Source of the DNA: Actinoallomurus sp. | Lineage (GTDB): Bacteria > Actinomycetota > Actinomycetes > Streptosporangiales > Streptosporangiaceae | Direction of reading: 5' to 3' | Assembly (NCBI GenBank): GCA_025964625.1 | Contig: JAOPYL010000182.1 | Span: forward strand, 1 to 64,000 | DNA: 64,000 nt | Shown: positions 7,112 to 56,234 of the stretch, one piece after another | How the letters are laid out: each line of letters starts with the position of its first letter | How positions within the stretch are numbered: the first letter of the stretch is position 1 | The notes under the pieces: model-generated | Told to the model about the DNA's origin: nothing | What the model saw: only the letters and a program-made list of their open reading frames with translations | The model's database searches: none | Made by a program: the position numbers and the translations under genes

Positions 7112-7150
7112 ACCGATGCCTCCGTGATCAGGTGCATGCCTTCCGGCAGT

Positions 7151-7720: not shown

Positions 7721-7741
7721 CTCGTTTCCACGAAGACCTGA

Positions 7742-7757
7742 TCCGGTCACGACCGGA
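7742..7757. terminator. Short inverted repeat between convergent genes
   Basis: The sequence TCCGGTC-AC-GACCGGA is a perfect 7-bp inverted repeat lying between the stops of the kinase and hyuB. Its place between convergent genes suggests a bidirectional transcription end, but there is no U-run, so the call is weak. Confidence 0.3.
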
Positions 7758-7798
7758 CAGAGACTTCGCCGAGGAACGCCTGGATGGGCCCGAATCGG

Positions 7799-15403: not shown

Positions 15404-17843
15404 CCCCGGCCTCACCGGCCGCTCGTCTGAGCGGCGCGGGGTGGGAGCGGGCGCGGTTGGTGAGTTCGGCCGCGCCGGACTCGGCCTCGAGGCGCAGGTG
15501 GAAGAGCTCGGACGGGGAGATCGGCATCCGGGAGACGCGGATGCCCTCGGCGTCCTCGATCGCGGCGGCGATGACCGCCGAGACGGGGATGACACCGGCC
15601 TCGCCGGCGCCCTTGATGCCCAGCGGGTTCAACGGGGACGGCGTCTCCATGTGGCCGGTCTCGATCGCGGGGACCTCGGTGGCGTACGGCATGAGGAAGT
15701 CCATGAACGACGCGTTCAGCAGCTGCCCCGCCTCGTCGTACACCATCCGCTCGTACAGCGCGCCGCCGACGCCCTGCGCCACTCCCCCGTGGATCTGCCC
15801 TTCGACGATCCGCGGGTTGATGAGCCGGCCGCAGTCGTGCAGCACGGTGTACCGCAGGATGCACACCTCGGCGGTGTCCGGATCGGTCTCGACGATCGCG
15901 GCGTGCATGCCGCACGCGAAGGTGGAGCGCACCGGCGAGTAGTAGTCCTCGCCCTCCAGCCCGGGTTCGCCGGTCAGCGGCGGCGTGTCCGCGGAGCCGC
16001 CCACGGCGAACTGGGTCGCCCGCCGGGTCTCCTCGTCGAAGGCGTACCTGAGCGGGTTGGACAGCACCGCGACCGTGCGCAGCGGGATCGAGGACCCCGC
16101 GTCGCCCTTCACCCGGACCACGCCGTCGACGATCTCGAGGTCCCGCGGGTCGGCCTCGAGCGCCTCTCCCGCGATGCGCAGCGCCTTCTCGCGTACCTTC
16201 CGGCAGGCCAGCGCGATGGCGTTGCCGCTCATCACCGCGGCCCGCGAGGCGAAGGTGCCGACCGCGTAGGCGAACCGCCGCGTGTCGCCGGTCGTCACGG
16301 TCACGTCCTCGATGGGCACGCCCAGCTCGGACGCGGTGATCTGGGCGAAGACGGTCTGATGTCCCTGCCCCTGGGACGTCAGACCGGTGGACACGTGCAC
16401 GCGTCCGCCGGAGTCGATCTCGACATGGCCGCCCTCGTACGGCCCGACGCCGGTGCCCTCGACGTAACAGGCGAGGCCGATGCCGATGCGCCGTCCCTGC
16501 CGCTCGGCCTCGGCGCGGCGGTCGCCGAACTCATCCCAGCCGATCAGTTCCTTCGTGCGCCGCAACATCTCCGGGTAGTCGCCGGAGTCGTAGATCAGCG
16601 GCCGGCCGTCCTGGAAGACGAGCCCCTGGTCGTAGGGGAACTCACCGGGCTGGACGAAGTTGGCCGCACGCACGGCCGTACGGTCGATGCCCAGCTCGTC
16701 GGCGATGCGGTCCATGGTCCGCTCCATGCAGAACACCCCCTGCGGGCGTCCCGCGCCGCGGTACGGCGTGACGATGACCGTGTTGGTGTAGAGGCTGGTG
16801 AACTCCACCCGGTAGGCGCCCGGTTTGTACGGTCCCAGCAACTGCGTGGAGGTGATGATCGGCACGATGATGCCGTACGGGGTATAGGCGCCGTGGTCGT
16901 GCTGGATCCGCACGTCCAGGCCCAGGAGCCTGCCCTCGTCGTCGAACCCGACCCGCACGAAGTGGACCTGCGCCCTCTCGTGGGCGGCCGAGACGAAGTG
17001 CTCGCGCCGGTCCTCGGTCCACTTGATCTCCCGGTCGAGGAGCCGCGCCGCCCAGGGGACCAGGACCTCCTCCGGCCACGGATGCACGATCTTGACGCCG
17101 AAGCCACCGCCGACGTCGGGGGCGATCACCTCGACCTTGACCGGTGGCAGCCCGAGCTTGGCCGCGATCGCCATCCGGACGCTCGTCGAGGTCTGCGTCG
17201 AGGAGTACACCCGCAGCGACTCGTCGTCGGCGTCCCACCGGGCGTAGACCCCGCGCCCTTCGAGCGGCATCGACGCGCTGCGCTCGATGTCGAGCCGGAA
17301 CTCCAGCACGTGCGGCGCCGAGGCGATCGCGCCGGGCGCGTCGCCGACCTCCTGGACCAGGTGCGCGCCGGCGTTGCCGGGCACGTCGTCGTGGACCAGT
17401 CGCTCGGCGCGCGCGGCGTCCTCGATGCCCACGACCGGCGGCAGCGGCTCGTACGTCACGCGGATGCGCTCGGCGGCGTCCTCGGCGAGGTAGCGGTCGC
17501 GGGCGACCACCATGACGACGGGCTCGCCGACGTGCCGTACGACGTCACGGGCCAGCGGATACGCCGTACGCCCGTGGGTGAGCGCGGGATGCGGGATCAG
17601 CAGCGGCAGGGGTTCCCCGACCCGGCCGGGCAGGTCCTCCCACGTGTAGATGGCGACCAGCCCCTCGATCTCCAGGGCGCCGCCGACGTCGATGTCGGTG
17701 ATGCGGGCGTGCGCGTGCGGCGACCGGACGAAGGCGGCCTCGAGCGCACCGCCCCCCAGGTCGTCGAGGTACCGGCCCTGGCCGGTGATGAGCCGGGGGT
17801 CCTCGCGGCGCGCGATCGGCTCGCCGAACAAAGCCGTGCTCAT
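15393..17843 (-). CDS. Molybdenum hydroxylase large subunit (xanthine dehydrogenase/CODH family, form II-type loop)
   Basis: Molybdopterin-cytosine-dinucleotide-binding catalytic subunit, 816 residues, with [13 protein letters not shown] near the N-terminus, [22 protein letters not shown] and the catalytic glutamate E748 in GAGEAG. The active-site loop reads P-Y-R-G-A-G-R (residues 360-366). True Mo-Cu CO dehydrogenase has a Cys-containing AYxCSFR loop instead, so this is a hydroxylase of another substrate. Genes for the iron-sulphur and FAD subunits and a uracil-type permease lie directly upstream, which makes an N-heterocycle such as uracil a good candidate. ATG 17843 fits the family start. 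The spacer to the small subunit carries a repeat element. Confidence 0.88.
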
Positions 17844-17958: not shown

Positions 17959-18438
<480 letters not shown>

Positions 18439-18517: not shown

Positions 18518-19381
18518 TCACAGAGCCTCCTGGGCGGCCGCCCGCAGGGTCCGTTCGGTGAGGACGCCCGCGAGGTGACGGCGGTAGGCGGCGGTCGCGT
18601 GGATGTCTCCGTCCGGGTCGATGTGGTCGCGCGCGTACCCCGCCGCGGCGGCCCAGTCACAGGTGACCGGGGGTCTTCGGTCCAGGGAGGCGGTCAGGTC
18701 GAGCACGAGCGGGGTGGCAGCGATGCTCAGGTAGGCCACCCGGGCGGAGCACACTCTCTGGTCGTCGTCGAGCGCCACCACGGCGGCCGCGCCGGCCATC
18801 GCATAGTCGCCGTGGCGCCTCGACACCTCGGCGAAGGCGGCGCCGGACCGCTCGGGCAACGCGGGGAAGAACGCCCTGACCGCGAGTTCGCCGCGACGCA
18901 GCGACGACTCCAGGGGCCCGGCGAAGAACTCGGCGGCCGGAACCGTACGGCGTCCGCGGGACGATGCCGCCTCGACGCTGCCGCCCAGCACGGCGAGGAC
19001 GGCGGGCAGTTCGGCGGCGGGGTCGGCGTGGGCGAGGCTGCCGACGACCGTGCCCCGGTTCCGCACCACCGGGTGGGCGACGTGTCGCAGCGCCGCCCTC
19101 AGCAGGGGCTGCACGGCCGCCGCCTCGTCGGACCGTTCCACGCGGGCGTGCCGGGCGAGCGCGCCGGCCCATACGCCCTCCGGCGTGACCTCCACGGTGT
19201 CCAGCTCGGTGACGCGGTTGATGTCGATCAGGTGCCCGGGGGCGGCCAGCCGCATGTTCAGCAGCGGGATGAGGCTCTGCCCGCCGGCCAGGACCTTCCC
19301 GTCGTCTCCGGCCCGTGCGAGCGCGTCGAGGGCCTCGTCCAGGGTCTCCGGTGCGTGGTAGGTGAAAGGCGGAGGCTTCAC
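18518..19381 (-). CDS. Molybdenum hydroxylase FAD-binding (medium) subunit
   Basis: FAD-binding subunit of the three-part Mo-hydroxylase, 287 residues, CoxM/CutM type. The FAD-binding signatures are AGGQSLIPLLNMRL (residues about 32-45) and the RNRGTVVGSLAHADPAAE block near residue 110. The protein receives electrons from the iron-sulphur subunit and passes them to an acceptor. The ATG at 19381 starts 7 bp after the uracil permease stop, so the two are co-transcribed. This tight link to a uracil-type transporter is the strongest local clue to the enzyme's substrate. Confidence 0.92.
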   Translation of the reverse strand: MKPPPFTYHAPETLDEALDALARAGDDGKVLAGGQSLIPLLNMRLAAPGHLIDINRVTELDTVEVTPEGVWAGALARHARVERSDEAAAVQPLLRAALRHVAHPVVRNRGTVVGSLAHADPAAELPAVLAVLGGSVEAASSRGRRTVPAAEFFAGPLESSLRRGELAVRAFFPALPERSGAAFAEVSRRHGDYAMAGAAAVVALDDDQRVCSARVAYLSIAATPLVLDLTASLDRRPPVTCDWAAAAGYARDHIDPDGDIHATAAYRRHLAGVLTERTLRAAAQEAL

Positions 19382-19388: not shown

Positions 19389-20798
19389 TCACTCCGCCTC
19401 CTGGGCCGTGCCGGGGGCGCGTCGGCTCGGCACGTCCGCCACGACCTCCGTCTCGCCCGGCGCGATGACGCCGGCGCCGGCGCCGCGAGGCGTCCGCTGG
19501 GCGGTGTTCAGCGCGTGGTAGCCGACCAGGACCGCGATCGTGCCGAGCGCGATGCCCTGCAGCGGGAAGTCCTTGGTGATCTTCAGGGTGACGTTGCCGA
19601 CGGCGAGGATGATGCCCGCGGCGACCGGGACCAGGTTCACCGGGTCGCCGAAGTCCACCCGGTTCTCGATCCAGATCTTCGCGCCGAGCAGCCCGATCAT
19701 GCCGTACAGCACGACGGTGATGCCGCCGAGCACCCCACCGGGCGTGACGGCCACCAGCGCGCCGAACTTCGGGCACAGGCCGAACAGGATCGCCACGACG
19801 GCCGCCACGTAGTAGGCGGCGGTCGAGTAGATCCGGGTGGCCGCCATGACACCGATGTTCTCGGCGTACGTGGTCGTCGGCGCACCCCCGACCGCGCTCG
19901 CCAGAACGGTGCCGACGCCGTCCGCGGCGATCGCCCGGCCGAGGTAGGGGTCCAGGTCCGTCTCGGTCATCGCGGCGACCGCCTTGACGTGCCCGGTGTT
20001 CTCCGCGATCAGCGCGATGACCGCGGGCAGCGCGACGAGGACGGCCGAGGTCTTGAAGTCGGGCGAGTGCAGGTGCGGGAAGCCGAACCAGTCGGCCGCC
20101 TTGACCTTGCCGAAGTCGACCCGGAAGTGCCTGCTCACCTGGCCGGTGCCGTCCGGTGCGGTGATCCGGCCCGCCGTCCTGTCCAGGATCCAGGACAGCA
20201 GGAAGCCGAAGACCAGGCCGATGAGGATGGCGATCCGGGACCAGAAGCCGCGCAGCAGCACCGCGCACAGCACCACGACGGCGAGTGTGGCGAGGGCGAC
20301 CCACTGGTCCTGCGGCCAGTAGACGTTCGCGACGACCGGCGCGAGGTTGAAGCCGATCAGCATGACCACCGCGCCGGTGACGACAGGCGGAAAGATCCGG
20401 TGCAGGATCCCGGCGCCGAGGACGTGGATGAGCACGCCGGCCGCGGCCAGCACCAGACCCGCCACCAGGATCGCGCCGGTGACGTTGGCGGTCGTACCGC
20501 CCGCCGCCCGGATCGACGCGGCGGCGCCCACGAAGGACGCGCTGGTACCGAGGTAGCTCGGGACCCTGCCTTTGACGATCAGCAGGAACAGGATCGTCGC
20601 GATGCCCGACATCATGATCGCGAGGTTCGGGTCGAGCCCCATCACGACCGGGAAGACGAAGGTCGCGCCGAACATCGCGACGACGTGCTGGGCGCCGATG
20701 CCGGCGGTCCGTCCCCAGGAGAGCCGCTCGTCCGGCCCGACCACCTCGCCCGGCGGGGGAGTACGCCCGTCGCCGTGCAACTTCCAGCCGATCGCCAT
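19389..20798 (-). CDS. uraA: NCS2-family uracil permease, UraA-like
   Basis: A proton-coupled nucleobase importer with 14 expected membrane helices in 469 residues. QHVVAMFGATFVFPVVMGLDP marks helix 1. The substrate-binding segments read AENTGHVKAV and GGAPTTTYAENIGVMAATR; the latter is nearly the E. coli UraA motif (GGVPNTTYGENIGVMA) and differs from xanthine/urate carriers. This supports uracil or a close analogue. ATG 20798 has a GGAGG site and gives the family start; an upstream in-frame start would add 19 unrelated residues. It lies between pucR and the FAD-subunit gene on the same strand. Confidence 0.88.
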   Translation of the reverse strand: MAIGWKLHGDGRTPPPGEVVGPDERLSWGRTAGIGAQHVVAMFGATFVFPVVMGLDPNLAIMMSGIATILFLLIVKGRVPSYLGTSASFVGAAASIRAAGGTTANVTGAILVAGLVLAAAGVLIHVLGAGILHRIFPPVVTGAVVMLIGFNLAPVVANVYWPQDQWVALATLAVVVLCAVLLRGFWSRIAILIGLVFGFLLSWILDRTAGRITAPDGTGQVSRHFRVDFGKVKAADWFGFPHLHSPDFKTSAVLVALPAVIALIAENTGHVKAVAAMTETDLDPYLGRAIAADGVGTVLASAVGGAPTTTYAENIGVMAATRIYSTAAYYVAAVVAILFGLCPKFGALVAVTPGGVLGGITVVLYGMIGLLGAKIWIENRVDFGDPVNLVPVAAGIILAVGNVTLKITKDFPLQGIALGTIAVLVGYHALNTAQRTPRGAGAGVIAPGETEVVADVPSRRAPGTAQEAE

Positions 20799-20895
20799 GG
20801 CGGCCCTCCAGGATGTTGATGCGGGCACGCTAGAACCGCGCCTCCCCGCGGACATCGTCGAGAACTGCCAAACCGCTACAGGTGCGGTTGTGACG

Positions 20896-22509
20896 TTAGA
20901 TACCCCGCATCCGAAGGACGTGAAGCGCGAGCGTGAGGTTGAGGCGAAGGTGGGCGTCCTCGGTGAACGGGCCGAGCAGGCGCTCCAGCTTCCCGATCCG
21001 GTACCGGAGCGTGTTGTAGTGGAAGTGCAGCCGCCGGGCCGTCTCCGCGACGTTCAGGTTGGTCTCCAGCAGCACCTGCAGGGTGCGGCGAAGATCCATG
21101 ACCTCGGGGTCGCCGTCGCCGGCGAGCTCTCCGAGGGTCTCCCGCACGAAGGCGTGCAGCTCGTCGGTGTCGTTGACCAGGCTGAGCAGCCGGAAGACAC
21201 CGAGCTGGTCGAAGTGGGCGACGGCCCCGTCGCCGTGCAGCTGGCGGCCGACGTGCACCGCCTTCACCGCCTGGTCGTAGGCGCCCGGAAGCTCGCCGGG
21301 CCCGGTGGCCGTGCGGCTCACGCCGGCGGAGAAGGTACGGCCCGCGTCGGCGAAGACGGCGGCGGCGTCCTTGGCCAGCGCCGCGAAGTCGCACGCCTCC
21401 GCGGCGAGCACGGCGACCACCTCGTGGGAGAAGCCGGCCACCGCGCCCTTGCGGTCGCGCCGGCGGACCGCCGAGGTCAGCGCCGCGACCAGCCGGTCCT
21501 GCAGGATCCGGTGCTCCGGTCCGCCCAGCGGCCCCTGGTCGAGTTCGGCGACGACCACGGTGACCGGACGGCCGAGATCCCAGCCGAAGCTCGCGCCGTG
21601 GGCGACGACGTGGTCGGCGCCGCCGGATCGCCCGGTGAGCACGTCGCGCAGGAAGTCCGCGCGGTACTTGCTCTCCACCGCGGACACGGCCTGCTGCTTG
21701 GTGATGACGAGCGCCGCGACGGTGGCCGCGCGCTCCAGCATGCCGACATCGGGGGCCGAGTCGCCCACCGCCGTCATCCGGCCGTAGGTGTAACCGCCGG
21801 CCACCACCGGCACGACCGCGCGGCCACCGTGCACGCCGTACTCCGCGGAAGTGTCGCCTCCGGGCGGCACGGTGCGCAGTGCGTCCAGATACCGCTCGTC
21901 GCCGGAGGCCACCAGCTCCCGGCCGTCCCCGTCGATGACTGCCACGGCCGCGCCGAGCAACGCCGCGAGCTCGTCGGTGATCTCCTGCAGGCCGCCGCCG
22001 CAGAGCACGATCTGCACGAGCGCCCGGTGCACCTCCTCCGCACGCGCGAGTATCGCCGCCTGCCGGTTGAGGATGTCGGTGAGCACCTGGTTGAGCACGT
22101 CGTCGAATCCGACGTCGTTGGGCAGCAGGATCAGCGGGAAGCCCAGCCGGTCGGCCTGCTCGATCATCTCGTCCGGCAGGCCGTCCAGATAGCGGCCGAG
22201 TTTGATGGCAAGTGCGGCGAGGCCGCGCTCGTCGAGGTCGGCGACGAGATGCGCGAGCGACTGGGGCGTGTTGCGCAGCGGGTAGCCGGTGGTCAGCAGC
22301 AGCTCGTGCGGCTTGACCCAGGCGAGGATGTCCGGGACCTCCATCACGTTGAGGCGCTGCACCACTCGGTCGAGACCGCTCTCGCCGGCGATCACGCGAG
22401 CACCGGAAAGTGCGGAGACGTCCAGCACCTCGCCGATGGACAGGCCGTACGTCAAGGTGCCCGTGCTGGCGAGACGAAGTGCCGGGGGGCGGGATTCGCT
22501 GAAGGACAT
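20896..22509 (-). CDS. pucR: PucR-family transcriptional regulator
   Basis: A 537-residue regulator with the PucR N-terminal domain (residues about 25-150; VLNVMEVPDI and HELLLTTGY region), a central GGDEF-like CdaR segment, and a C-terminal helix-turn-helix: LLETNLNVAETARRLHFHYNTLRYRIGKLE. PucR proteins control purine and other nitrogen-base catabolic genes in response to pathway intermediates. The ATG at 22509 begins the conserved part. It heads the leftward unit with the permease and Mo-hydroxylase genes (97-bp gap to the permease) and faces the allHFG-like unit across 165 bp, so it probably controls both. Confidence 0.9.
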   Translation of the reverse strand: MSFSESRPPALRLASTGTLTYGLSIGEVLDVSALSGARVIAGESGLDRVVQRLNVMEVPDILAWVKPHELLLTTGYPLRNTPQSLAHLVADLDERGLAALAIKLGRYLDGLPDEMIEQADRLGFPLILLPNDVGFDDVLNQVLTDILNRQAAILARAEEVHRALVQIVLCGGGLQEITDELAALLGAAVAVIDGDGRELVASGDERYLDALRTVPPGGDTSAEYGVHGGRAVVPVVAGGYTYGRMTAVGDSAPDVGMLERAATVAALVITKQQAVSAVESKYRADFLRDVLTGRSGGADHVVAHGASFGWDLGRPVTVVVAELDQGPLGGPEHRILQDRLVAALTSAVRRRDRKGAVAGFSHEVVAVLAAEACDFAALAKDAAAVFADAGRTFSAGVSRTATGPGELPGAYDQAVKAVHVGRQLHGDGAVAHFDQLGVFRLLSLVNDTDELHAFVRETLGELAGDGDPEVMDLRRTLQVLLETNLNVAETARRLHFHYNTLRYRIGKLERLLGPFTEDAHLRLNLTLALHVLRMRGI

Positions 22510-22674
22510 GGGTGCCCGATCTGCCGCAGTTGACCACCTATGCGCGACCAACCATGACAAGAGACACGAACGATGGCAACCATCCTTGGCAGAATCATCC
22601 ATACGGCCGGAACGAGGGCCGGTCTAGGTTCGCCACGAGCGGCCATCACGAGCGGCCATCACGGGGAGGGTCTG
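22510..22674. promoter_or_regulatory. Divergent control region between pucR and the allHFG-like operon
   Basis: This 165-bp spacer must hold promoters for both directions. It has two direct copies of CACGAGCGGCCAT (22634-22646 and 22647-22659) followed by a third partial copy, and a small inverted repeat GATGG-CAA-CCATC at 22572-22584. Either could be a PucR operator. I could not place reliable -35/-10 boxes. Confidence 0.5.
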
Positions 22675-23601
22675 GTGACGGTGTCCACCGCCCGGCGGAG
22701 GTCCGGATCTCACGGGTCTCACGCCGCCGCGGTCACGACCCTGGCGGGTGCGGCCAGCCTGGGCGTCCGCGCCCCGCTCGGCGGCCCGCGACGCCACGGC
22801 CGCGCCATGGCGGTGTTCCCCTCGGCGGTCTACCTGCAGGTCGACGGGCCGGCGGAGCCGGGGGTGATAGCGCTGGTCTCCTCCGACGCCGTGCGTCTGC
22901 CGAACTCGGTCGTCCTCGCCGCCTCCGCCCGGCAGGAGCCGTTCCGGGCCATCCGTGAGGGCGACCATGCCCTCGTCGGCGACGGGTGCACGGAGGTCGG
23001 CGGGCGGCTGCGCGTCCGCGTACGCCGCTGGTGGGACCCGACTCCGGTGCTCGGGCCGCTGTCGCTGGCCCGCCTCTCTCACGGCGAACGCGCTCTCGAC
23101 GGGGTCACCGGGCGCTGGGGTCTGTCCGGGCACACGATGCCGGAGACCCTCGCCGACGCCTGCCTCGCCGGCGATCTCGCGCACGCGGTCGACGCCGCCG
23201 AACGGATCGTCGGTCTCGGCCCGGGACTCACCCCGAGCGGAGACGACGCGCTCGCCGGTCTGCTGCTCGCGCTGCGCCTGCTCGGCGGCGCGGTGCCCGG
23301 CGGCGGGCGCGCGGTATGGCTGGCCGACTGGCTGGGCGCCGCGGTCACCGCCCATGCCCGTGACCGCACCACGTCCCTGGCCGCGACCCTGCTGCACTGC
23401 GCCGCACGCGGCCAGGCGAGCGTCGAGGCGGCGGCGGTGCTTCGCGGCATCGCCGGGCAGGATCCGCTCGTGCCCGCCGCGCGACGCCTCCTCGCCACCG
23501 GGCACACCTCCGGCGCCGATCTCGCCTGGGGCCTGCTCATCGGCTGCCGGGCCGCCCTCGCGCTCAGCTCCCGGCAGGCTCTCCACGGTGGCGACACGTG
23601 A
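22675..23601 (+). CDS. DUF2877 protein, AllH-like (oxamate transcarbamylase component homologue)
   Basis: A 308-residue protein with the DUF2877 core GLGPGLTPSGDDALAGLLLALR (residues about 180-205), the signature of E. coli YlbF/AllH. In E. coli, AllF, AllG and AllH together form the transcarbamylase that phosphorolyses oxalurate to oxamate and carbamoyl phosphate. Here the three homologues are adjacent in the order H-F-G. The GTG at 22675 has a GGGGAGGG site at 22662-22669, better supported than upstream ATGs that would run into the control region. Its stop overlaps the next start (GTGA). No allantoin genes are near, so the carbamoylated substrate is probably different. Confidence 0.83.
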   Translation: MTVSTARRRSGSHGSHAAAVTTLAGAASLGVRAPLGGPRRHGRAMAVFPSAVYLQVDGPAEPGVIALVSSDAVRLPNSVVLAASARQEPFRAIREGDHALVGDGCTEVGGRLRVRVRRWWDPTPVLGPLSLARLSHGERALDGVTGRWGLSGHTMPETLADACLAGDLAHAVDAAERIVGLGPGLTPSGDDALAGLLLALRLLGGAVPGGGRAVWLADWLGAAVTAHARDRTTSLAATLLHCAARGQASVEAAAVLRGIAGQDPLVPAARRLLATGHTSGADLAWGLLIGCRAALALSSRQALHGGDT

Positions 23602-25025
23602 TCGAGCGAAGCGAGGGAACCAGCAAGCACAGCACCGACCTGATCGAGGTGCGGTCCGGCGCCTACCACGACTCTGTCACGCTCATGCGGGCCGGCCGCC
23701 GTCTCGCCGAGCGTCCCGGCGTGACCGGCGCCCTGACCGCGATGGCGACCGCGCTGAACCTCGAGCTCCTCGCCGAGATGGGGTTCACACCGCCGCCCGG
23801 CGCGGGGCCGGACGACCTCCTCGTGGCGATCCGCGCGGACGACGCGGCCGCGCTGGAGGCCGCCCGCGCCGCGGTCGACGAACTGCTCGCCCCGTCCGCG
23901 GAGGCCCGTCCCTTCGGCGCGCCGGCTCCGGCCCGCACCATCGGGTCGGCCGCACGGCGGATCGACGCCACGCTCGCACTGGTGTCGGTGCCGGGGCCGT
24001 ACGCCTTCACCGAGGCCATGGACGCGCTGGACGCCGGGCTGAACGTCATGGTCTTCAGCGACAACGTGCCCGTCGAGCACGAGCTCGTGCTGAAGGAGAC
24101 GGCGGCACGCCGCGGTCTGCTGGTGATGGGACCCGACTGCGGGACCGCCGTCGTCGGCGGCGCGGGGCTCGGCTTCGCCAATGCGGTGCGCCCCGGGAAG
24201 GTAGGCCTGGTCGCCGCCTCCGGAACCGGATCCCAGCAGGTGATGAGCCTGCTCGACGAGGCCGGCGCCGGGGTCAGTCATGCGCTCGGCGTGGGCGGCC
24301 GCGATCTGTCCGCCGAGGTCAGCGGGCGGTCCACCCTACAGGCCCTGCGGGCACTCGACGCGGACCCGGCCACCGAACTGATCATCATGGTGTCGAAGCC
24401 GCCCGCTCCGGAGGTCGGCGACCTGGTCCGCTCCGCCACGCGGCGCCTGTCGACCCCCGTGCTGTTCGCGCTGCTCGGAGAGGGGCTGGACGACCTGACC
24501 ACGGCCGTCGAGAAGGCCCTCGGCACGCTCGGCATGCCGGTGCCCTCCTGGCCGTCCTGGCCCGCGTGCCGGCCGGTCCGGCCGTGCGGGCGTACGGAGC
24601 CGGGCCTGCTTCGCGGGCTGTTCGCCGGTGGCACTCTCTGCGAGGAGGCGGCGATCATCGCCGGGACGATCCCGCACACGATGACCGACTTCGGAGACGA
24701 CCGGTACACGCGGGGACGTGCCCATCCGATGATCGACCCGACGCTTCGCCTCGAACGGCTCGCCGCCGAGACGACCGGCGGCGCGTGCGCGGTCGTGCTG
24801 ATGGACGTGGTGCTCGGATACGGCGCGGAGCCCGACCCGGCGGCGTCTCTGGCCCCCGTGATCGAACAGGCGGAGGTTCCCGTGGTCGTGTCACTGTGCG
24901 GCACCGCCGGGGACCCGCAGGACCGCGACCGGCAGGCGCAGGCCCTGGCGGCGGCGGGCGCCGCGGTGTTCGCCTCCAACGCGGCCGCCGCCCGCCACGC
25001 CGTGTCGCTCGCCGAAGGGTCCTGA
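23598..25025 (+). CDS. FdrA/AllF-like acyl-CoA synthetase-fold protein (transcarbamylase component homologue)
   Basis: A 475-residue FdrA homologue with a duplicated succinyl-CoA-synthetase-alpha-like fold. Visible blocks are MGPDCGTAVVGGAGLGFANAV, GLVAASGTGSQQV, LGVGGRDLSAEVSG and, in the second half, VLMDVVLGYGAEPDP. In E. coli this is AllF, part of oxamate transcarbamylase. A short Pro/Trp/Cys-rich patch (about residues 316-330) replaces the usual linker. The GTG start at 23598 overlaps the DUF2877 stop. The first residues (IERSEGTSKH) are encoded by GAGCGAAGCGAG, a motif resembling the dispersed spacer repeats, so part of the N-terminus may be repeat-derived. Confidence 0.85.
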   Translation: MIERSEGTSKHSTDLIEVRSGAYHDSVTLMRAGRRLAERPGVTGALTAMATALNLELLAEMGFTPPPGAGPDDLLVAIRADDAAALEAARAAVDELLAPSAEARPFGAPAPARTIGSAARRIDATLALVSVPGPYAFTEAMDALDAGLNVMVFSDNVPVEHELVLKETAARRGLLVMGPDCGTAVVGGAGLGFANAVRPGKVGLVAASGTGSQQVMSLLDEAGAGVSHALGVGGRDLSAEVSGRSTLQALRALDADPATELIIMVSKPPAPEVGDLVRSATRRLSTPVLFALLGEGLDDLTTAVEKALGTLGMPVPSWPSWPACRPVRPCGRTEPGLLRGLFAGGTLCEEAAIIAGTIPHTMTDFGDDRYTRGRAHPMIDPTLRLERLAAETTGGACAVVLMDVVLGYGAEPDPAASLAPVIEQAEVPVVVSLCGTAGDPQDRDRQAQALAAAGAAVFASNAAAARHAVSLAEGS

Positions 25026-25027
25026 TC

Positions 25028-26476
25028 GTGCACTCGCCCTCCTCCAGGGATCCTGTTCGCGGCTCCGCCACCGACGGCGGCGGCCCCGGAAACACCGGGC
25101 TCGGCGGCCTGCTCACCCGTGACATCGGAGTCGTCACCGCCGGGACCTCCGTGCTGGCCGACGCCCTCGCCGAGCAGGCCGTGCCGGTGGAGACCGTCGA
25201 CTGGCGGCCGCCGGCCGGCTCCCCCGACGACCTGGCCGTCGTCATGGGCGACCGGCGCCGGACCGCGGCCGACGCCGAAGCCGTGCGGCGGATGCTGAAC
25301 GCCCGCCCCCACCTGGTGGACGTGCGCCCCGCCCGCGAGGTCCTCGGCATCGAACGCGGCACGTTCCTCCACGCCGGACCGCCGCTGGCCTGGGACAGGG
25401 CCTCCGGGCCGATGCGGGGCGCGCTCATCGGCGCGGCGCTGTTCGAAGGCCTGGCCGGTACTCCCGAAGAGGCGGAGCGGGTGCTGCGGACCGCACCGCT
25501 GGACTCCTGTCACCACCACCGGACGGTCGGCCCGATGGCGGGCGTGGTCAGCCCGTCGATGTGGATGTTCGTCGTCGAGGACGCCGAGGGAGGCGGGACG
25601 GCGTTCTGCTCTCTCAACGAGGGACTCGGCAAAGTGCTGCGCTACGGCGCGTACGGCCCCGAGGTGATCGAACGGCTGCGCTGGATGGCCGGCACTCTCG
25701 GCCCCGCCCTGCGGGACGCGGTGCGCGCCCGGGGTCCCGTCGACCTGCGGGCGATCATGGCGCAGGCCCTGCACATGGGCGACGAGCTGCACAACCGCAA
25801 CCGGGCGGCGACGTCCCTGTTCGTCCGGGAGCTGGCGGGCGACCTGGCCGATGCGGGCGCCGCGGACGCGCTGCGGTTCACGAGCGGGAACGACCACTTC
25901 TTTCTCAACCTGGCCATGGCGGCCGGCAAGGTCAGCGCCGACGCCGCCCGCGATGTGCCGGGCTCTTCGCTGGTGGTCGCGATGGCCCGCAACGGCACCG
26001 AGTTCGGCATCCAGGTCTCCGGCACCGGCGACCGCTGGTTCACCGGCCCCGCCGGAGTACCCGACGGCCTCTACCTGGGGGCGTACGGTCCCGCCGACGC
26101 CAACCCGGACATCGGCGACTCGACGATCACGGAGACGACCGGCGTCGGCGGCTTCGCCATGGCCGCGGCCCCCGCGATCGTCAGGTTCATCGGCGGCGAG
26201 GTCCCCGACGCGCTCGCCGCCACGCAGCGGATGTACGAGATCACTCTGGCCGAGCACCCGGCGTTCCAGGTGCCGATCCTGGACTTCCGGGGCACGCCGG
26301 TGGGCATCGACGTCACCAAGGTCGTCCGCACCGGCATCCTGCCGGTCGTCAACACCGGCATCGCCGGCCGGGTCGCCGGCACCGGCCAGGTCGGGGCGGG
26401 TCTCGTCTCCCCGCCCGCCGAAGTGTTCACCCAGGCGCTGCACGCCCTCGCCGAGGGGGCGACAATCACCCCATGA
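25028..26476 (+). CDS. DUF1116 protein, AllG-like (transcarbamylase component homologue)
   Basis: A 482-residue DUF1116 (YlbE/AllG) protein, the largest component of the oxamate transcarbamylase set. Conserved stretches include HHRTVGPMAGVVSPSMWMF, FCSLNEGLGKVLRYGAY, QALHMGDELHNRNRAAT and FTSGNDHFFLNLAMA, covering residues about 160-310. The GTG start at 25028 lies two bases after the allF-like stop. Its own stop overlaps the start of a mutarotase-like gene (ATGA). With its partners it is predicted to release carbamoyl phosphate from an N-carbamoyl amide; ureidomalonate is my favoured substrate by structural likeness to oxalurate. Confidence 0.87.
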   Translation: MHSPSSRDPVRGSATDGGGPGNTGLGGLLTRDIGVVTAGTSVLADALAEQAVPVETVDWRPPAGSPDDLAVVMGDRRRTAADAEAVRRMLNARPHLVDVRPAREVLGIERGTFLHAGPPLAWDRASGPMRGALIGAALFEGLAGTPEEAERVLRTAPLDSCHHHRTVGPMAGVVSPSMWMFVVEDAEGGGTAFCSLNEGLGKVLRYGAYGPEVIERLRWMAGTLGPALRDAVRARGPVDLRAIMAQALHMGDELHNRNRAATSLFVRELAGDLADAGAADALRFTSGNDHFFLNLAMAAGKVSADAARDVPGSSLVVAMARNGTEFGIQVSGTGDRWFTGPAGVPDGLYLGAYGPADANPDIGDSTITETTGVGGFAMAAAPAIVRFIGGEVPDALAATQRMYEITLAEHPAFQVPILDFRGTPVGIDVTKVVRTGILPVVNTGIAGRVAGTGQVGAGLVSPPAEVFTQALHALAEGATITP

Positions 26477-27378
26477 CGCTTTCGGGGAACCAGTACGAGA
26501 TCTTCGCCGGGTCGTACGCGGCCGTCGTCACCGAGCAGGGCGGAGGGCTGCGCGTGCTCTGCCACGACGGGCGCCCGCTCATCCTCTCCTATGATGCGGA
26601 CGAGCTGGTGCCCGCCGCGAGTGGGCAGCTGCTAGCGCCGTGGCCGAACCGGGTCGACCACGGCCGGTACCGCTTCGGCGAGGAGTCCTACCGGCTGCCG
26701 ATCAACGAGGCCGAGCGGGACAACGCGATCCACGGCCTCGTCCGGTGGGACTCGTGGAGCGTCACCGAACACGAGCGGCACCGCGTGCGGCTCGCGCACC
26801 GGCTGCTCGGCCGCGCCGGCTACCCGTTCCGGCTCGACCTCACCGTGGAGTACTCCCTCGACGCCGCCGGCGGGCTGACGGTGCGGCAGTCGGCGCACAA
26901 CACCGGCTCGCGCCCGGCGCCGTACGGGCACGGCGCGCACCCCTACCTGACGCTCGGGCGGCCGCTCGACGAGTGCGAGCTGGCCGTGTCCGCCGACCGG
27001 TACCTCCGGGTGGACGAGCGGGCCATCCCCGAACGGGCGCCGCAGGACGTCACCGGCACGCCGCATGACTTCCGTACGCCCCGGCGGCTCGGTGACACCG
27101 TGATCGACAACCCGTACACCGGGCTGCGCCGCGACGCCGGGGGGCGGGCGTGGGTGCGGCTCCGCGACGGCGAGCGCTCGGTCGCGCTCTGGGCCGACAA
27201 GGCCCACCCATGGCTCGAGCTCTACACCCGCGACGAGGTGCGGGACGGCTCGGCACGCATCGGGCTCGGTGCCGAGCCGATGACCTGCCCGCCCAACGCG
27301 TTCGCCAGCGGCACCGACCTCATCGTGCTGAAGCCCGGTGAAGAGTTCGCCGGCTCCTGGGGGATCGCCGCGGACTGA
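26473..27378 (+). CDS. Aldose 1-epimerase (galactose mutarotase-like) protein
   Basis: A beta-sandwich mutarotase-like protein of 301 residues. The family pattern is present: APWPNRVDHGRYRF, the first catalytic His in NAIHGLVRW, the second in GHGAHPYL, and a C-terminal Glu in LGAEPMTCPPNAF. Such enzymes interconvert sugar anomers. Its ATG overlaps the stop of the AllG-like gene, so it is translated with the transcarbamylase set, which is unexpected for a sugar enzyme. It could be a passenger, or act on a ribose-type product of nucleoside breakdown; neither is shown by the sequence. Confidence 0.85.
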   Translation: MTLSGNQYEIFAGSYAAVVTEQGGGLRVLCHDGRPLILSYDADELVPAASGQLLAPWPNRVDHGRYRFGEESYRLPINEAERDNAIHGLVRWDSWSVTEHERHRVRLAHRLLGRAGYPFRLDLTVEYSLDAAGGLTVRQSAHNTGSRPAPYGHGAHPYLTLGRPLDECELAVSADRYLRVDERAIPERAPQDVTGTPHDFRTPRRLGDTVIDNPYTGLRRDAGGRAWVRLRDGERSVALWADKAHPWLELYTRDEVRDGSARIGLGAEPMTCPPNAFASGTDLIVLKPGEEFAGSWGIAAD

Positions 27379-27459: not shown

Positions 27460-28659
27460 GTGAAGCTGACGCTGTCCTCACTCGACGACCTGAGCGCGCG
27501 CGTCGAGGAGGCGCGTGCCGAGCACGACCGCCGGTTCCCCGGCGATCCGGTGGAACGGCAGCCCGTGCACACGGTGTACGTGCCCGCCGACCGCTTCACC
27601 GCGACCACCTCCACCGACCTGGGCGCGGAGGCGCTGCGGCTGCTCGACGCGCATGCCCCCGACGGCGCCGCGATGGCCGGCGCGTTCGGTGTCGAGGCGT
27701 CGCTGGGCGACACCGTCCGCGAGCGGGTCGCCGCGAAGCTCTCCCGCGAACCGGTCGAGGACCTGCGGGTCGACTTCGAGGACGGCTACGGCCTGCGGGA
27801 CGACGAGGAGGAGGACGGGCACGTCGCGCGGGCCGTCGAGTCGATCGCGGAGGCCTACGAGGCGCGGCGGCTGCCGTACTACTGGGGGCTGCGGGTCAAG
27901 TCCTTCGCCGACGGCGGCCACGAGCGCAGCATGCGCACCCTCGACGGGTTCCTCACCGGGCTGGCGGAACGCCTGGGCAAACTGCCGGGCGGCTTCGTCG
28001 TCACCTTCCCGAAGGTCGTCACGCCCGAACACGTCGCGATATTCGCCGACTTCCTGGCCCGGTTCGAGGAGGAGATCGGCCTTCCCGACGGCATGCTGCG
28101 CTTCGAGGTGCAGGTCGAGACGACGGAGTCGGTCACCCGCCTGCGGGACGTCGTGGACGCCGCCGGGGGCCGGTTGAACGCCGCCCACTTCGGCGTGTAC
28201 GACTACACGGCCGCGTGCGGGCTGCCGCCGTCGGAGCAGCGGCTCGATCATCCCTCCTGTGAGTACGCCCGGCACGTCATGCAGGTCACCCTGGCCGGCA
28301 CCGGGGTGCGCCTGTCGGACGGCTCCACCAACATCGTTCCGGCGAGCGACGACACGAAGGACGTGCACCGGGCGTGGCGCAGGCACGCGGGCCTGGTGCG
28401 CTACTCCCTCCTGCACGGTTTCCACCAGGGGTGGGATCTGCACGCGGCACACCTGCCCAGCCGGTTCGCCGCCGTCTACGCCTTCCACCTGAACGGCCTG
28501 GACGACGCCATGGGCCGGGTCCGCGCGTGGAACGAGAACGGTCAGGCCGCCGGCGGCGTCATGGACGAACCAGCGACGATCAAGGCGCTGAACGCCCGGC
28601 TACGACGGGCCGTCGACTGCGGCGCCATCGACGCCGGCGCGGTCACGCTGCCGGCCTGA
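27460..28659 (+). CDS. DUF6986 protein, CitE/HpcH-like aldolase or lyase
   Basis: A 399-residue protein related to the citrate lyase beta/malyl-CoA lyase TIM-barrel family. RVDFEDGYG holds the acidic metal-binding residues and RFEVQVETTES the second acidic strand; HFGVYDYTAACG follows. Homologues occur beside purine-degradation genes in actinobacteria, but their reaction is not established. The GTG at 27460 has a GGAAGGAA site at 27447-27454. It lies 81 bp after the mutarotase gene on the same strand, so it could belong to the same unit or have its own promoter. A C-C bond reaction on a 2-carbon or 3-carbon breakdown product is possible. Confidence 0.8.
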   Translation: MKLTLSSLDDLSARVEEARAEHDRRFPGDPVERQPVHTVYVPADRFTATTSTDLGAEALRLLDAHAPDGAAMAGAFGVEASLGDTVRERVAAKLSREPVEDLRVDFEDGYGLRDDEEEDGHVARAVESIAEAYEARRLPYYWGLRVKSFADGGHERSMRTLDGFLTGLAERLGKLPGGFVVTFPKVVTPEHVAIFADFLARFEEEIGLPDGMLRFEVQVETTESVTRLRDVVDAAGGRLNAAHFGVYDYTAACGLPPSEQRLDHPSCEYARHVMQVTLAGTGVRLSDGSTNIVPASDDTKDVHRAWRRHAGLVRYSLLHGFHQGWDLHAAHLPSRFAAVYAFHLNGLDDAMGRVRAWNENGQAAGGVMDEPATIKALNARLRRAVDCGAIDAGAVTLPA

Positions 28660-28731: not shown

Positions 28732-29313
28732 TCAGCTGAACCGGCGAAGGTCCTCGGGCGTGTCGATGTCCTCGGGGTCGGCGACGTCGTCGCACGGGAC
28801 GGAGACGACGATGTCGGGGCGGGCGCGCAGGAACTCACGGGCGCCCATGTCGCCCGTGGCGTGCGCGGCCGCCTCCGCGAAGTACTCATGGGCGATCAAC
28901 ACCGGGTTGCGCGGCCGGCCGGCGTAGGCCGCCACCGCCACGCGCGCTCCGGACTCGTAAGCCTCGCGCAGCCTCCGCACGGCCGCCGCCGTCACTTTGG
29001 GCTGGTCGACGAGGGCGATGACCACGGCCGGGCAGTCGGGCGCCAGCGCGGACAGGCCGGCGCGCAGCGACGAGCCCATGCCGGTGCGCCAGTCGGGGTT
29101 GTGCACGACGACGGCGCCCGCCACGTCGACACGCGCCGCGCCGGTGACGACGATGACGGGCGTGCATCCGGCCTCGTGCAGCATGCGCACGCCGCGGTCC
29201 GTCAGCCGCACCCCGCCGATCTCGACGAGCGCCTTGGGCGTGCCGAGCCGCCGTCCCTCACCCGCGGCGAGCAGCAGCCCGGCCGGCGCGCCCGCGTGCC
29301 TGGTCATCCCCAT
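28732..29313 (-). CDS. MobA/MocA-like nucleotidyltransferase (molybdenum cofactor)
   Basis: A 193-residue nucleotidyltransferase with the LLLAAGEGRRLGTPKALVEIGG loop at the N-terminus (residues about 11-32) and a DQPKV metal-site segment around residue 100. In this family MocA adds CMP to molybdopterin to make the cytosine dinucleotide used by xanthine dehydrogenase- and CODH-type enzymes. ATG 29313 or 29307 could start it; neither has a clear ribosome site. It is the last gene of a minus-strand cassette with XdhC, a VWA protein and a MoxR ATPase, which supports work on the Mo-hydroxylase of this island. A general sugar-nucleotide role is less likely. Confidence 0.8.
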   Translation of the reverse strand: MGMTRHAGAPAGLLLAAGEGRRLGTPKALVEIGGVRLTDRGVRMLHEAGCTPVIVVTGAARVDVAGAVVVHNPDWRTGMGSSLRAGLSALAPDCPAVVIALVDQPKVTAAAVRRLREAYESGARVAVAAYAGRPRNPVLIAHEYFAEAAAHATGDMGAREFLRARPDIVVSVPCDDVADPEDIDTPEDLRRFS

Positions 29314-29376
29314 GCTCGGAAAGCGTATCCACAACCGGCGCCGGCAAGCTCCATGACCGGTCCAGGAATGGGCAGG

Positions 29377-30474
29377 TCAGTCGCCATGAATGCGGCCCTC
29401 CGTGTCGGTGAGCGGGTTGCCGCTGCCGCCCCAGCGGAGCTGGATCAGCTCAGCGGCGATCGAGACGGCGGTCTCCTCGGGAGTGCGGGCGCCGAGGTCG
29501 AGGCCGATCGGCGAGCGCAGCCGGGCGATCTCCTCCTCCGTCATGCCCGCCTCGCGCAGCCGTTCCAGCCGGTCGTCGTGCGTGCGGCGGGAGCCCATCG
29601 CCCCGACGTAGGCCGCGGATGTGCGCAGCGCCACCTCCAGCAGCGGAACATCGAACTTGGGGTCGTGGGTGAGCACGCAGATCACCGTCCGCTCGTCCAC
29701 GTCGGCTTCGGCGAGGAACTTGTGCGGCCACTTCACCACGACCTCGTCGGCCTCCGGGAACCGCTTCGCGGTGGCGAAGACGGGCCGGGCGTCGCAGACG
29801 GTCACGTGGTAGCCGAGGAACTTGCCGACCCGGGCCACGGCGGCGGCGAAGTCGATCGCGCCGAACACCAGCATGCGCGGCGGCGGCGCGAAGGAGTGCA
29901 CGAAGACGGCCAGCTCGTCCAGGCGGCGCTCCCCGTGCCGGCCGTAGCGGCGGACGCCCGTCGCTCCCTGGGCGAGCATCCCGCGAGCGTCGTCGTCCAC
30001 GGCCGCGTCCAGCCGGTCGACGCCGAGATGGCCCGCCGACCGGTCCCCCCACACCACGCGCCGCGCGCCGATCTCTCCGGGACCCTCGATGACGGTCGCG
30101 ACCGCGACCGGCTCGTGCCGTTCGATCGACGCCACCACCTCACCGAACACCGGGAAGGAAGCCGGGCCGACCGGCTCCACCAGGATGTCGAGGATGCCGC
30201 CGCACGTCAGCCCGACGGCGAACGCGTCGTCATCGGTGACGCCGTACCGCCGCACGACGGGCCGGCCGGACTCCAGGACCTCCTGGGCCAGCTCGTAGAC
30301 CGCGCCCTCGACGCAGCCGCCGGACACGCTGCCCACGGCCTCGCCCTGACGCGAGACGGCCATGGCGGCGCCCGGCGGGCGGGGCGCGCTGCGGAAGGTG
30401 TTGACGACCGTGGCCAAGCCGAACGTCTCACCCTCGTCGTACCACTTGCCGATGTCGCGCAGGACGTCACGCAT
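29377..30474 (-). CDS. XdhC/CoxI-family molybdenum cofactor maturation protein
   Basis: Cytosolic maturation factor that binds molybdenum cofactor and helps make the sulphurated form needed by xanthine dehydrogenase-type enzymes. The 365 residues show both domains: N-terminal SVSGGCVEGAVYE and GLTCGGILDILVEP with the conserved cysteines, and a C-terminal Rossmann domain with MLVFGAIDFAAAVARVGKFLGY and VGAMGSRRTHDDR. The start at 30474 overlaps the VWA gene's stop by 8 bases. It is one of four linked genes that together look like a CoxD-CoxE-CoxF/I-MobA cassette serving the Mo-hydroxylase at 15-19 kb. Confidence 0.9.
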   Translation of the reverse strand: MRDVLRDIGKWYDEGETFGLATVVNTFRSAPRPPGAAMAVSRQGEAVGSVSGGCVEGAVYELAQEVLESGRPVVRRYGVTDDDAFAVGLTCGGILDILVEPVGPASFPVFGEVVASIERHEPVAVATVIEGPGEIGARRVVWGDRSAGHLGVDRLDAAVDDDARGMLAQGATGVRRYGRHGERRLDELAVFVHSFAPPPRMLVFGAIDFAAAVARVGKFLGYHVTVCDARPVFATAKRFPEADEVVVKWPHKFLAEADVDERTVICVLTHDPKFDVPLLEVALRTSAAYVGAMGSRRTHDDRLERLREAGMTEEEIARLRSPIGLDLGARTPEETAVSIAAELIQLRWGGSGNPLTDTEGRIHGD

Positions 30475-31579
30475 TCCCGATCACTCCTGCCAGTTCCTCG
30501 AGGGCGGCCAGGCTGTGCCCGGCCACGAAGTCGTCGACGTGCGGCAGCGCCGCCAGCATCCCGGCGGTGAGCGGCTCGTATCCGGGCTGCGCCTTGTGCG
30601 GGTTGGACCACACGACGCGATGGGCGAGCCGGTGCAGCCGCGCCATCTGCTCGCCGAGCAGCGCCGCGTCACCGCGTTCCCAGCCGTCGGAGGCGATGAC
30701 GACGACCGCGCCGCGCGCCATGCCGCGCTGACCGAAGCGATCGAGGAACTCCTTCAGCTCCTCGCCGAGCCGGGTGCCGCCGCTCCAGTCCGGGATCGCG
30801 GACGACACCACCGCCATCGCGGTGTCCGGCTCGCGGTGACGCAGTTCCCGGGTCACCCTGGTCAGCCGGGTGCCCGCGCTGAACACCTCGGTCGTTCGCG
30901 GCGCGGAGCGCACGGCCGCGTGGGCGAACCGCAGGAGCACGTCGGCGTACGGGCTCATCGAGCCGCTCACGTCGACGAGCAGGACCACCCGGCGGGGACG
31001 CGTCCGGTGGGCCCGGTGGTACAGGGTCGAGATCTCGCCGCCACGCCGGAGGATCGAGCGCACCGTCCGGTGCGGATCGAGACGCCCCCGGTGGCGGGCC
31101 GTGAACCGGCGCGAGCGACGCTGCGCGGACACGTCGTCGAGGAGCGCGAGCAGGCGGTGCACCTCGGCACGCTCCGCGTCACTGAGCCGGGCGACGTCGC
31201 GCAGCCGCAGTACCTCGATCTCGCTGGCCGTCGCCAGGGTGACGTCGCCGGGCTTCTCCTCGCCGCCCGTACCCGGCGTGGACGCGTGGCGTACGACCGT
31301 CACCGGTGGCGGAGAGGAACGGCGGACCGAGGCGGACGCGCCGGAGAAGTAAGCGCCGAAGCATCTGTCGTAGCGCGGCAGGTCGGCGGGGTCCGCGCAC
31401 AGGGTGAGCCGCCCGGCCCAGTACACGTCCCGTGCGTCCAGCACGTCGAGGTGGCTCACGGCCGCGATCATGGCCTGGACCCGCTCGGGGTCGGCGCCGA
31501 CGCCGGCCGCGCGCAGCGTACGGGCGAAGCCGGTCATCGTGTCGACCACATCGCGCGCGTGCGCCCCGCTCACGGTCAT
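30467..31579 (-). CDS. CoxE-like VWA domain protein
   Basis: A 370-residue von Willebrand factor A protein of the CoxE type. The MIDAS metal site reads DVSGSMS (about residue 192) and a conserved SDGWERGD follows. CoxE works with the MoxR ATPase CoxD in the final assembly of molybdenum hydroxylases, in CODH for the Cu-S centre. The start ATG at 31579 overlaps the ATPase stop (ATGA) and its own end overlaps xdhC. Since the large subunit here lacks the Cu-binding cysteine loop, this pair presumably finishes a different active site. Confidence 0.87.
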   Translation of the reverse strand: MTVSGAHARDVVDTMTGFARTLRAAGVGADPERVQAMIAAVSHLDVLDARDVYWAGRLTLCADPADLPRYDRCFGAYFSGASASVRRSSPPPVTVVRHASTPGTGGEEKPGDVTLATASEIEVLRLRDVARLSDAERAEVHRLLALLDDVSAQRRSRRFTARHRGRLDPHRTVRSILRRGGEISTLYHRAHRTRPRRVVLLVDVSGSMSPYADVLLRFAHAAVRSAPRTTEVFSAGTRLTRVTRELRHREPDTAMAVVSSAIPDWSGGTRLGEELKEFLDRFGQRGMARGAVVVIASDGWERGDAALLGEQMARLHRLAHRVVWSNPHKAQPGYEPLTAGMLAALPHVDDFVAGHSLAALEELAGVIGNA

Positions 31580-32490
31580 GCCCCGTTGAGCAGGGCGGCG
31601 ATGCCGCCCTCGATGACGCGCTCGGTGTCCTCGCGGTATTTGAGCACGGCTCCGAGCGTCACCGCCGCGGTGTCCGGGTCGAGGTCGCGGGCGCCCAGCG
31701 CGATGAGGGCCTCGGCCCAGTCGAGGCTCTCCGCGACTCCTGGGGCCTTCAGCAGGTCCAGCTCCCGCAACCGGCCCGCGGCGCCGGCGACCTGACGGAC
31801 GAGGCGGTCGGCGGCGTCCGGCAGGCGCCGCCGGATGATCGCCACCTCGCGGTCGAACGCCGGATGCTCCAGCCAGTGGTACAGGCAGCGGCGCTTGAGC
31901 GCGTCATGTACCTCGCGGGTGCGGTTCGAGGTGACGACGACGACCGGCGGCCGTTCGGCGCGGATCGTGCCCAGCTCGGGGATGGAAATGGTGAAATCGC
32001 TCAGCACCTCCAGCAGGAACGCCTCGAACTCGTCGTCGGCGCGGTCGATCTCGTCCACGAGCAGGACGCTCGGACGGTCGTGGGAGGAGGTCTCCAGGGC
32101 CTGCAGCAGCGGCCGGGAGACGAGGAAGCGCCGGTCGTAGAGCTCCGACTCGAGGCGCTGCACGTCGGTCACACCGGCGGCCTCGGCGGCCCGCAGGTGC
32201 AGCAGCTGCCGCGGGAAGTCCCAGTCGTACAGCGCCTGCGCGGCGTCCAGCCCCTCGTAGCACTGGAGCCGGATCAGCGGGGCGTCCAGGACGGCGGCGA
32301 GGGTCTTGGCCAGCTCCGTCTTGCCGACCCCCGCCTCACCTTCGAGGAACAGCGGCCTGCGCATGCGCAGGCTCAGGAAACAGGCGGTGGCGAGTCCGTC
32401 GTCGGCGAGGTAGGCGTGCCGCTCAAGGGCCTCAGTGAGGACCGCGGGCGACACGACATCCGATGCCAGAATTGACGTGGTATGCGGCAC
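31576..32490 (-). CDS. MoxR-family AAA+ ATPase, CoxD-like
   Basis: A 304-residue AAA+ chaperone ATPase. Walker A GEAGVGKTE (about residues 50-58), Walker B VLLVDEIDR with the catalytic Glu, sensor-1 VVTSNRTRE, and the C-terminal lid are all present. MoxR ATPases act with VWA partners to remodel or insert metal in client proteins; CoxD with CoxE matures carbon monoxide dehydrogenase. It heads the four-gene minus-strand cassette that ends with the MobA-like gene. ATG at 32490; the 88-bp upstream gap contains an AT-rich patch (about 32519-32540) that may be its promoter. Confidence 0.9.
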   Translation of the reverse strand: MPHTTSILASDVVSPAVLTEALERHAYLADDGLATACFLSLRMRRPLFLEGEAGVGKTELAKTLAAVLDAPLIRLQCYEGLDAAQALYDWDFPRQLLHLRAAEAAGVTDVQRLESELYDRRFLVSRPLLQALETSSHDRPSVLLVDEIDRADDEFEAFLLEVLSDFTISIPELGTIRAERPPVVVVTSNRTREVHDALKRRCLYHWLEHPAFDREVAIIRRRLPDAADRLVRQVAGAAGRLRELDLLKAPGVAESLDWAEALIALGARDLDPDTAAVTLGAVLKYREDTERVIEGGIAALLNGA

Positions 32491-56227: not shown

Positions 56228-56234
56228 ACTCGCG

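Follow-up and report, generated by a model that had tools for sequence, protein, structure and literature searches.

An AllFGH-like operon divergent from a molybdenum hydroxylase unit in Actinoallomurus and its probable part in oxidative pyrimidine catabolism

What does a complex resembling the oxamate transcarbamylase AllF-AllG-AllH (AllFGH) act on when its genes stand beside those for a nucleobase permease and a molybdenum (Mo) hydroxylase? The question is raised by an allH-allF-allG operon in a 64,000-nt stretch of Actinoallomurus sp. (contig JAOPYL010000182.1, positions 1 to 64,000; the window). A first-pass annotation of the sequence had proposed recruitment of the complex to an N-carbamoyl substrate outside allantoin breakdown. 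We find that the locus probably serves oxidative pyrimidine catabolism, with the AllFGH-like complex phosphorolyzing ureidomalonate to malonamate and carbamoyl phosphate. This reading is built on gene identities by family model, conserved residues, gene order, co-occurrence and phylogeny, and from these we infer every reaction of the proteins concerned, above all the substrate of the Mo-hydroxylase and the substrate and products of AllFGH.

The operon and its divergent neighbors

All three oxamate transcarbamylase subunits are present (Table 1), and AllG and AllF are 47% and 38% identical to the E. coli proteins. The genes are translationally coupled or nearly so, as the first-pass annotation had stated, with a 4-bp GTGA overlap at the allH/allF junction and 2 bp between allF and allG. 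An in-frame ATG for AllH is also found at 22573; we favored the start at 22675 because a conserved operator-like element lies in the 22573 region. The GxGxGLTPxxDD residues are preserved in AllH, which has 15 invariant columns. Preserved as well are the 63 columns invariant among 23 AllF proteins, including the His of HPM(I/L)D, and the invariant columns of AllG. Judged by these residues, the complex looks catalytically intact. For AllG, AllF and barbiturase, the folds are represented in the Protein Data Bank (PDB) by structures 3clq, 3dmy and 5hwe, respectively.

The operon faces pucR, a permease gene and genes for the FAD (MoM), 2Fe-2S (MoS) and large (MoL) subunits of a Mo-hydroxylase across a single 165-bp control region. 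Here too the earlier description was correct, and 22510, from which it began, is the first intergenic base between the PucR start at 22509 and the AllH start. The arrangement PucR-permease-MoM-MoS-MoL diverging from AllH-AllF-AllG is kept in dozens of genera, far beyond chance. Within homologous PucR/AllH divergent regions, TTGGC-N11-TACG (in fuller form, TTGGCA-N2-TTTCTCC-RTACGG) occurs in 44 of 60, making the conserved element of the window a candidate PucR operator. The permease belongs to the NCS2 superfamily and scores below the RutG equivalog cut-off (388 vs 758.65 bits). The forms of CO dehydrogenase are defined by motifs, form I by AYXCSFR. MoL lacks this motif and has PYRGAGR, and on that ground a CO dehydrogenase identity was rejected. 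Current annotation would name it a 'group 5' CO dehydrogenase; CO has already been doubted as the substrate of form II CO dehydrogenases (PMC6794299).

Could this be an ordinary oxamate transcarbamylase, phosphorolyzing oxalurate from purine or allantoin breakdown, with the pyrimidine genes as mere neighbors? It shares the subunits and conserved residues of E. coli AllFGH, and the genome carries a urate/allantoin cluster with uricase, HIU hydrolase, xanthine dehydrogenase subunits, allantoinase and allantoicase. That cluster, however, is of the allantoicase type and lies on another contig (C131), and the AllD family of ureidoglycolate dehydrogenases (PF02615) had 0 matches in the genome; it therefore lacks the route by which E. 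coli forms oxalurate. No allantoin cluster was found in the rest of the contig, which extends what the first-pass annotation had said of the window. The same annotation had expected allantoin-linked and uracil-linked AllG proteins to separate in a tree, and they do: AllG proteins linked to barbiturase and Mo-hydroxylase form a single clade (support 100/98, recovered in 100% of bootstrap trees); AllG of E. coli and Enterococcus gilvus, both allantoin-linked, pair with each other outside it (100/100). A wider tree agrees. The complex thus neither stands in an AllD-containing allantoin context nor groups with, or nests within, verified oxamate transcarbamylases. An allantoin function was rejected on the lack of AllD, the separate AllG phylogeny and the location of the allantoin cluster. 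With the near-perfect co-occurrence with barbiturase and the single-cluster arrangement of a distant family, both described below, this explanation becomes highly improbable. Of the recruitment proposal, the part concerning another substrate is supported, with ureidomalonate as our hypothesis; its polarity, with allantoin use coming first, is not, since the AllG tree is unrooted.

Linkage to barbiturase and carbamate kinase

The left end of the window, some 21 kb away from AllH, carries a barbiturase-carbamate kinase (CK) gene pair. The first-pass annotation had overlooked both genes; pathway genes are present in the window after all. The barbiturase scored 613 bits against PDB barbiturase 5hwe and at most 326 bits against cyanuric acid hydrolases (CAH). 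The latter are recognized by two arginines (R194 and R324 of the Pseudomonas ADP enzyme) plus the motif SGGxExQGPxGGGP (PMC9118981, PMC4051656). At the places of these arginines the window protein has Asn (Asn209) and Lys, and a different 14-residue stretch replaces the motif. We rejected a CAH identity on these residues and motif, although the CAH model NF052395 exceeds its cut-off, and automatic annotation would therefore misname the protein.

Co-occurrence was scored in 151 genomes (the window's own and 150 others from its family). MoL was counted at 1424 bits or more, plus one fragment at a contig end, and AllG if high-scoring; low-scoring AllG paralogues (G101, G117, G084, G082 and others), which occur in other contexts with no barbiturase beside them, were set apart. 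Barbiturase was found in 94 genomes, MoL in 93, AllG in 90 and the barbiturase-linked CK clade in 75. MoL and barbiturase occurred together in 93 genomes and were both missing from 57; none had MoL only, and the sole genome with barbiturase only is 88% complete. For AllG and barbiturase the corresponding numbers were 89 with both, 1 with AllG only, 5 with barbiturase only and 56 with neither, and for the CK clade and barbiturase 74, 1 (CK only), 20 and 56. Fisher's test gave p = 3e-41 for MoL/barbiturase and 3e-34 for AllG/barbiturase, values computed over related genomes that are not independent. Within each of three genera (g1, g31 and g38), some species have AllG, barbiturase and MoL and others have none, so the three appear to switch together. 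The same picture emerged from a second, independent set of 296 genomes drawn from the phylum, in which 13 of 13 barbiturase genomes also had AllG and MoL.

The exceptions were inspected individually. G140 combines a truncated AllG match with the lack of both barbiturase and a group-5 MoL. Among genomes with barbiturase and no AllFGH, the locus of G094 stops at a contig end. In G099 (L104, 11219-11521) a 100-aa remnant in which the first part of AllF runs into the last part of AllG marks a recent deletion of the complex, with barbiturase, MoL and CK retained; AllHFG is also absent from G068, of the same genus.

Gene order outside the family brings the components together. The whole gene set forms one cluster in a distant family (f17) and in G267. 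Loci L115 and L119 run barbiturase - permease - CK - AllH - AllF - AllG - MoM - MoS - MoL - CoxG, with PucR divergent, and L122 has the same set in a different order; an amidase follows CoxG in L115, L117 and L122. Barbiturase, mostly with CK, is at most 10 kb from AllFG in Geodermatophilus, Blastococcus and Modestobacter, and lies near AllG plus an amidase in Ornithinimicrobium. CK adjoins barbiturase in most of the window's family.

Predicted reactions and their alternatives

The oxidative pyrimidine pathway, described since the 1950s and called rare, proceeds by oxidation of uracil to barbiturate, ring opening by barbiturase, and cleavage by ureidomalonase to malonate and urea (PMC3758960). 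In the pathway that we propose, with the PucR regulator placed between the two divergent units, uracil (or thymine) would enter via the RutG-like permease, and the three-subunit Mo-hydroxylase would add a water-derived oxygen to give barbiturate from uracil. Barbiturase, whose gene lies with that of CK at a distance of about 20 kb, would open the ring to ureidomalonate (HOOC-CH2-CO-NH-CO-NH2), which the AllFGH-like complex would convert with phosphate to malonamate and carbamoyl phosphate. CK would then use the carbamoyl phosphate to make ATP, releasing CO2 and NH3; malonate and NH3 may be freed from malonamate by an amidase. By analogy, the AllFGH step is most likely the E. coli reaction on a substrate one CH2 longer than oxalurate (HOOC-CO-NH-CO-NH2).

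Since removal of the carbamoyl group would be phosphorolytic, the other product should be malonamate. Malonamidase E2 is an enzyme that hydrolyses malonamate. Once this prediction had been made, we searched solved structures with the intact L122 amidase; its best match was malonamidase E2 (270 bits), and the next family reached 143. By this sequence comparison the malonamate prediction held for the f17 cluster of L122.

The complex might instead be the missing ureidomalonase, hydrolyzing ureidomalonate to malonate and urea with no carbamoyl phosphate. Ureidomalonate is the expected product of barbiturase and ureidomalonase the reported next enzyme (PMC3758960), and some genomes have no CK beside barbiturase. 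Yet the E. coli homologue of the complex acts as a transcarbamylase (PMC11326118), and CK sits within the AllH-F-G gene run of distant clusters, is found in 74 of the 94 genomes with barbiturase and appears with AllFGH in unrelated settings too. We consider hydrolysis quite unlikely.

A further alternative keeps the pathway and changes the ring-opening product delivered to AllFGH, for example one from 5-methylbarbiturate (thymine) or from HyuAB acting on another cyclic ureide. HyuA and HyuB are encoded between the two halves of the window locus, and in several other genomes they are again close to barbiturase or to the Mo-hydroxylase-AllFG unit. Members of a sister AllG clade come from Mo-hydroxylase-HyuA-HyuB-AllF-AllG runs with no barbiturase. 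The compact f17 clusters (L115, L116 and L122), on the other hand, have barbiturase, with HyuAB not in the stretch, and we regard a different product as improbable. As to HyuAB itself, the genes adjoin barbiturase, with or without CaiB, in G093 and G063, resembling the corresponding block of the window. In the runs of the sister clade (L127, L128 and L129), HyuAB may open the ring in place of barbiturase, or the complex may have another substrate.

Several observations weigh against phosphorolysis of ureidomalonate in a pyrimidine pathway. Barbiturase is at least 22 kb from AllFGH in the window's family (median 36 kb in same-contig cases); what links the two in that family is therefore their co-occurrence, counted over phylogenetically non-independent genomes. 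G045 and G093 keep barbiturase and MoL and have neither AllFGH nor the CK clade; the absence of AllFGH looks genuine in both, and another way to break ureidomalonate must therefore exist. The barbiturase-linked CK clade is missing from 18 of 90 AllG genomes, which implies that CK is dispensable or replaced; where it is lacking, biosynthesis could draw on the carbamoyl phosphate. No close homologue of malonamidase E2 is present in the window's genome, and the Ornithinimicrobium amidase is not malonamidase-like. Finally, no operator-like element was convincingly found upstream of barbiturase-CK: a weight matrix built from divergent-region sequence gave only weak matches, of which none approached the training scores and a few exceeded the 95% level of shuffled sequence. 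A PucR operator shared with barbiturase-CK is a lead only.

Window features, related systems and significance

Coordinates are collected in Table 1. The aminotransferase and carbon-nitrogen hydrolase genes recur near barbiturase in the window's family, and the Mo-enzyme maturation genes are kept in Actinomadura/Actinoallomurus loci. Genes identified by inspection as carA, carB and others of pyrimidine biosynthesis lie at 54465-63975, about 30-40 kb from the proposed degradation genes.

Table 1. Features of the window.
Feature	Position	Strand	Evidence and remarks
Barbiturase (AtzD/TrzD cyclic-amide hydrolase family)	190-1341	-	TIGR02714 553 bits
Carbamate kinase (CK)	1338-2285	-	arcC model 349 bits; overlaps barbiturase by 4 bp
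Aminotransferase	2418-3554	-	Identity by inspection; next to barbiturase-CK
Carbon-nitrogen hydrolase	3690-4484	+	Identity by inspection; possible downstream amidase (putative role)
APC permease, CaiB/BaiF CoA-transferase, HyuB, HyuA	4567-11640	-	Between locus halves; possible relation to the pathway
Mo-hydroxylase large subunit (MoL), candidate uracil/thymine dehydrogenase	15393-17831	-	NF040766 1505 bits
Mo-hydroxylase 2Fe-2S subunit (MoS)	17959-18438	-	Family models
Mo-hydroxylase FAD subunit (MoM)	18518-19381	-	Family models
NCS2 nucleobase permease, RutG-like, candidate uracil importer	19389-20855	-	RutG 388 bits; ncs2 300 bits, above cut-off
PucR-family regulator	20896-22509	-	PucR 129 bits plus HTH_30
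Divergent control region between pucR and allH	22510-22674		165 bp; element TTGGCAGAATCATCCATACG at 22586-22605
allH-like subunit	22675-23601	+	PF11392 (AllH) 87.8 bits, cut-off 25
allF (FdrA)-like subunit	23598-25025	+	PF00549/PF02629 CoA-ligase/CoA-binding domains; FdrA model 376 bits; PDB 3dmy
allG (DUF1116)-like subunit	25028-26476	+	PF06545 312 bits, cut-off 27; PDB 3clq 371 bits
Aldose-1-epimerase	26473-27378	+	Start overlaps AllG stop by 4 bp (ATGA); extends the gene run
DUF6986 HpcH/HpaI-like protein	27460-28659	+	Next after epimerase, same run
Mo-enzyme maturation genes: MocA-like, XdhC-like, CoxE-like, MoxR-like	28732-32454	-	MocA and XdhC by family; CoxE and MoxR by inspection

With oxamate transcarbamylase AllFGH and AllK of E. 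coli and Enterococcus (PMC11326118, PMC9843812), the locus shares three homologous subunits, a carbamate kinase partner, conserved residues and an expected acylurea-type substrate. It differs in its linkage to Mo-hydroxylase and barbiturase rather than AllC, AllD and AllE, in its AllG clade, in the gene order H-F-G and in the predicted additional CH2 of the substrate. In common with the oxidative pyrimidine pathway are a barbiturase of the 5hwe type and a candidate uracil-oxidizing enzyme by a nucleobase permease, whereas the predicted third step is an energy-conserving phosphorolysis to carbamoyl phosphate and not hydrolysis to urea. The form II-like, aerobic CO dehydrogenase-like Mo-hydroxylases of 'group 5' (NF040766) have the same MoL/MoS/MoM subunits and Cox-type maturation genes; the window's enzyme stands apart from CO dehydrogenases by PYRGAGR in place of the form I motif and by its tie to barbiturase. 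Two related proteins were seen in other settings. L124 (G330) has a Mo-hydroxylase from a related clade (about 1060 bits) beside an amidase and a divergent AtzD-family protein with neither the CAH nor the barbiturase signature, in a stretch without AllFGH. A plasmid of Azospirillum argentinense (L233, 1421-9227) carries a Mo-hydroxylase, an SRPBCC protein, an amidase, HpxZ and a lone DUF1116 protein with no FdrA; AllG paralogues therefore exist outside the three-subunit complex.

Operons combining CAH, AllFGH and CK were found on plasmids. Those of Leclercia (L217, pZ96-1_4), Citrobacter, Klebsiella and others encode a CAH-signature amidohydrolase with a permease, DUF2877, FdrA, DUF1116 and CK. 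Klebsiella pKqs_SB610_3 (L235) and Aminobacter pSR8 (L216) have FdrA, DUF1116, CAH and CK, the former with allophanate hydrolase too. The Leclercia, Klebsiella and Aminobacter operons share with the window the module of ring-opening amidohydrolase, AllFGH and carbamate kinase; they differ in the CAH signature, in having no Mo-hydroxylase in the stretches read and in AllG proteins that fall in other clades. Phosphorolysis of carboxybiuret would yield carbamoyl phosphate and allophanate, the products predicted for these operons, and an allophanate hydrolase is therefore predicted by the same logic. It is possible that they constitute an undescribed cyanuric acid route via these two products. In another context, AllFGH and CK occur with an isochorismatase-like cysteine hydrolase (L218, Peptoclostridium; L219, an E. 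coli plasmid; L130, L131 and L050), where the substrate is possibly a biuret- or triuret-type compound.

From the R-CO-NH-CO-NH2 structure common to oxalurate, ureidomalonate and carboxybiuret, we infer a general substrate class for AllFGH. We give roughly even chances to the broader view that these complexes are not tied to allantoin but are general acylurea phosphorylases, in effect transcarbamylases run in reverse, acting on oxalurate (from allantoin), ureidomalonate (from uracil by way of barbiturate) or carboxybiuret (from cyanuric acid), each with its own ring-opening or oxidizing feeder and with a CK drain that makes ATP from nucleobase or triazine nitrogen, and that 'CODH group 5' enzymes are uracil/thymine dehydrogenases. 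The plasmids on which AllFGH is joined by CAH, and in one case by allophanate hydrolase, support the acylurea phosphorylase part of this view. In the literature searched, no gene was assigned to uracil dehydrogenase, the first step of the oxidative uracil route, and no sequence was found for the third; an open-access search returned no paper with both 'barbiturase' and 'carbamate kinase'. A single locus now offers candidate genes for both steps, in a candidate module carried by about 60% of the genomes sampled from a large actinobacterial family and also by distant relatives. If the proposal is true, two automatic names, cyanuric acid amidohydrolase and CO dehydrogenase, would be corrected, a group of 'CO dehydrogenases' would be explained as nucleobase oxidases, and an enzyme family known only from allantoin would become an energy-conserving enzyme of pyrimidine catabolism.

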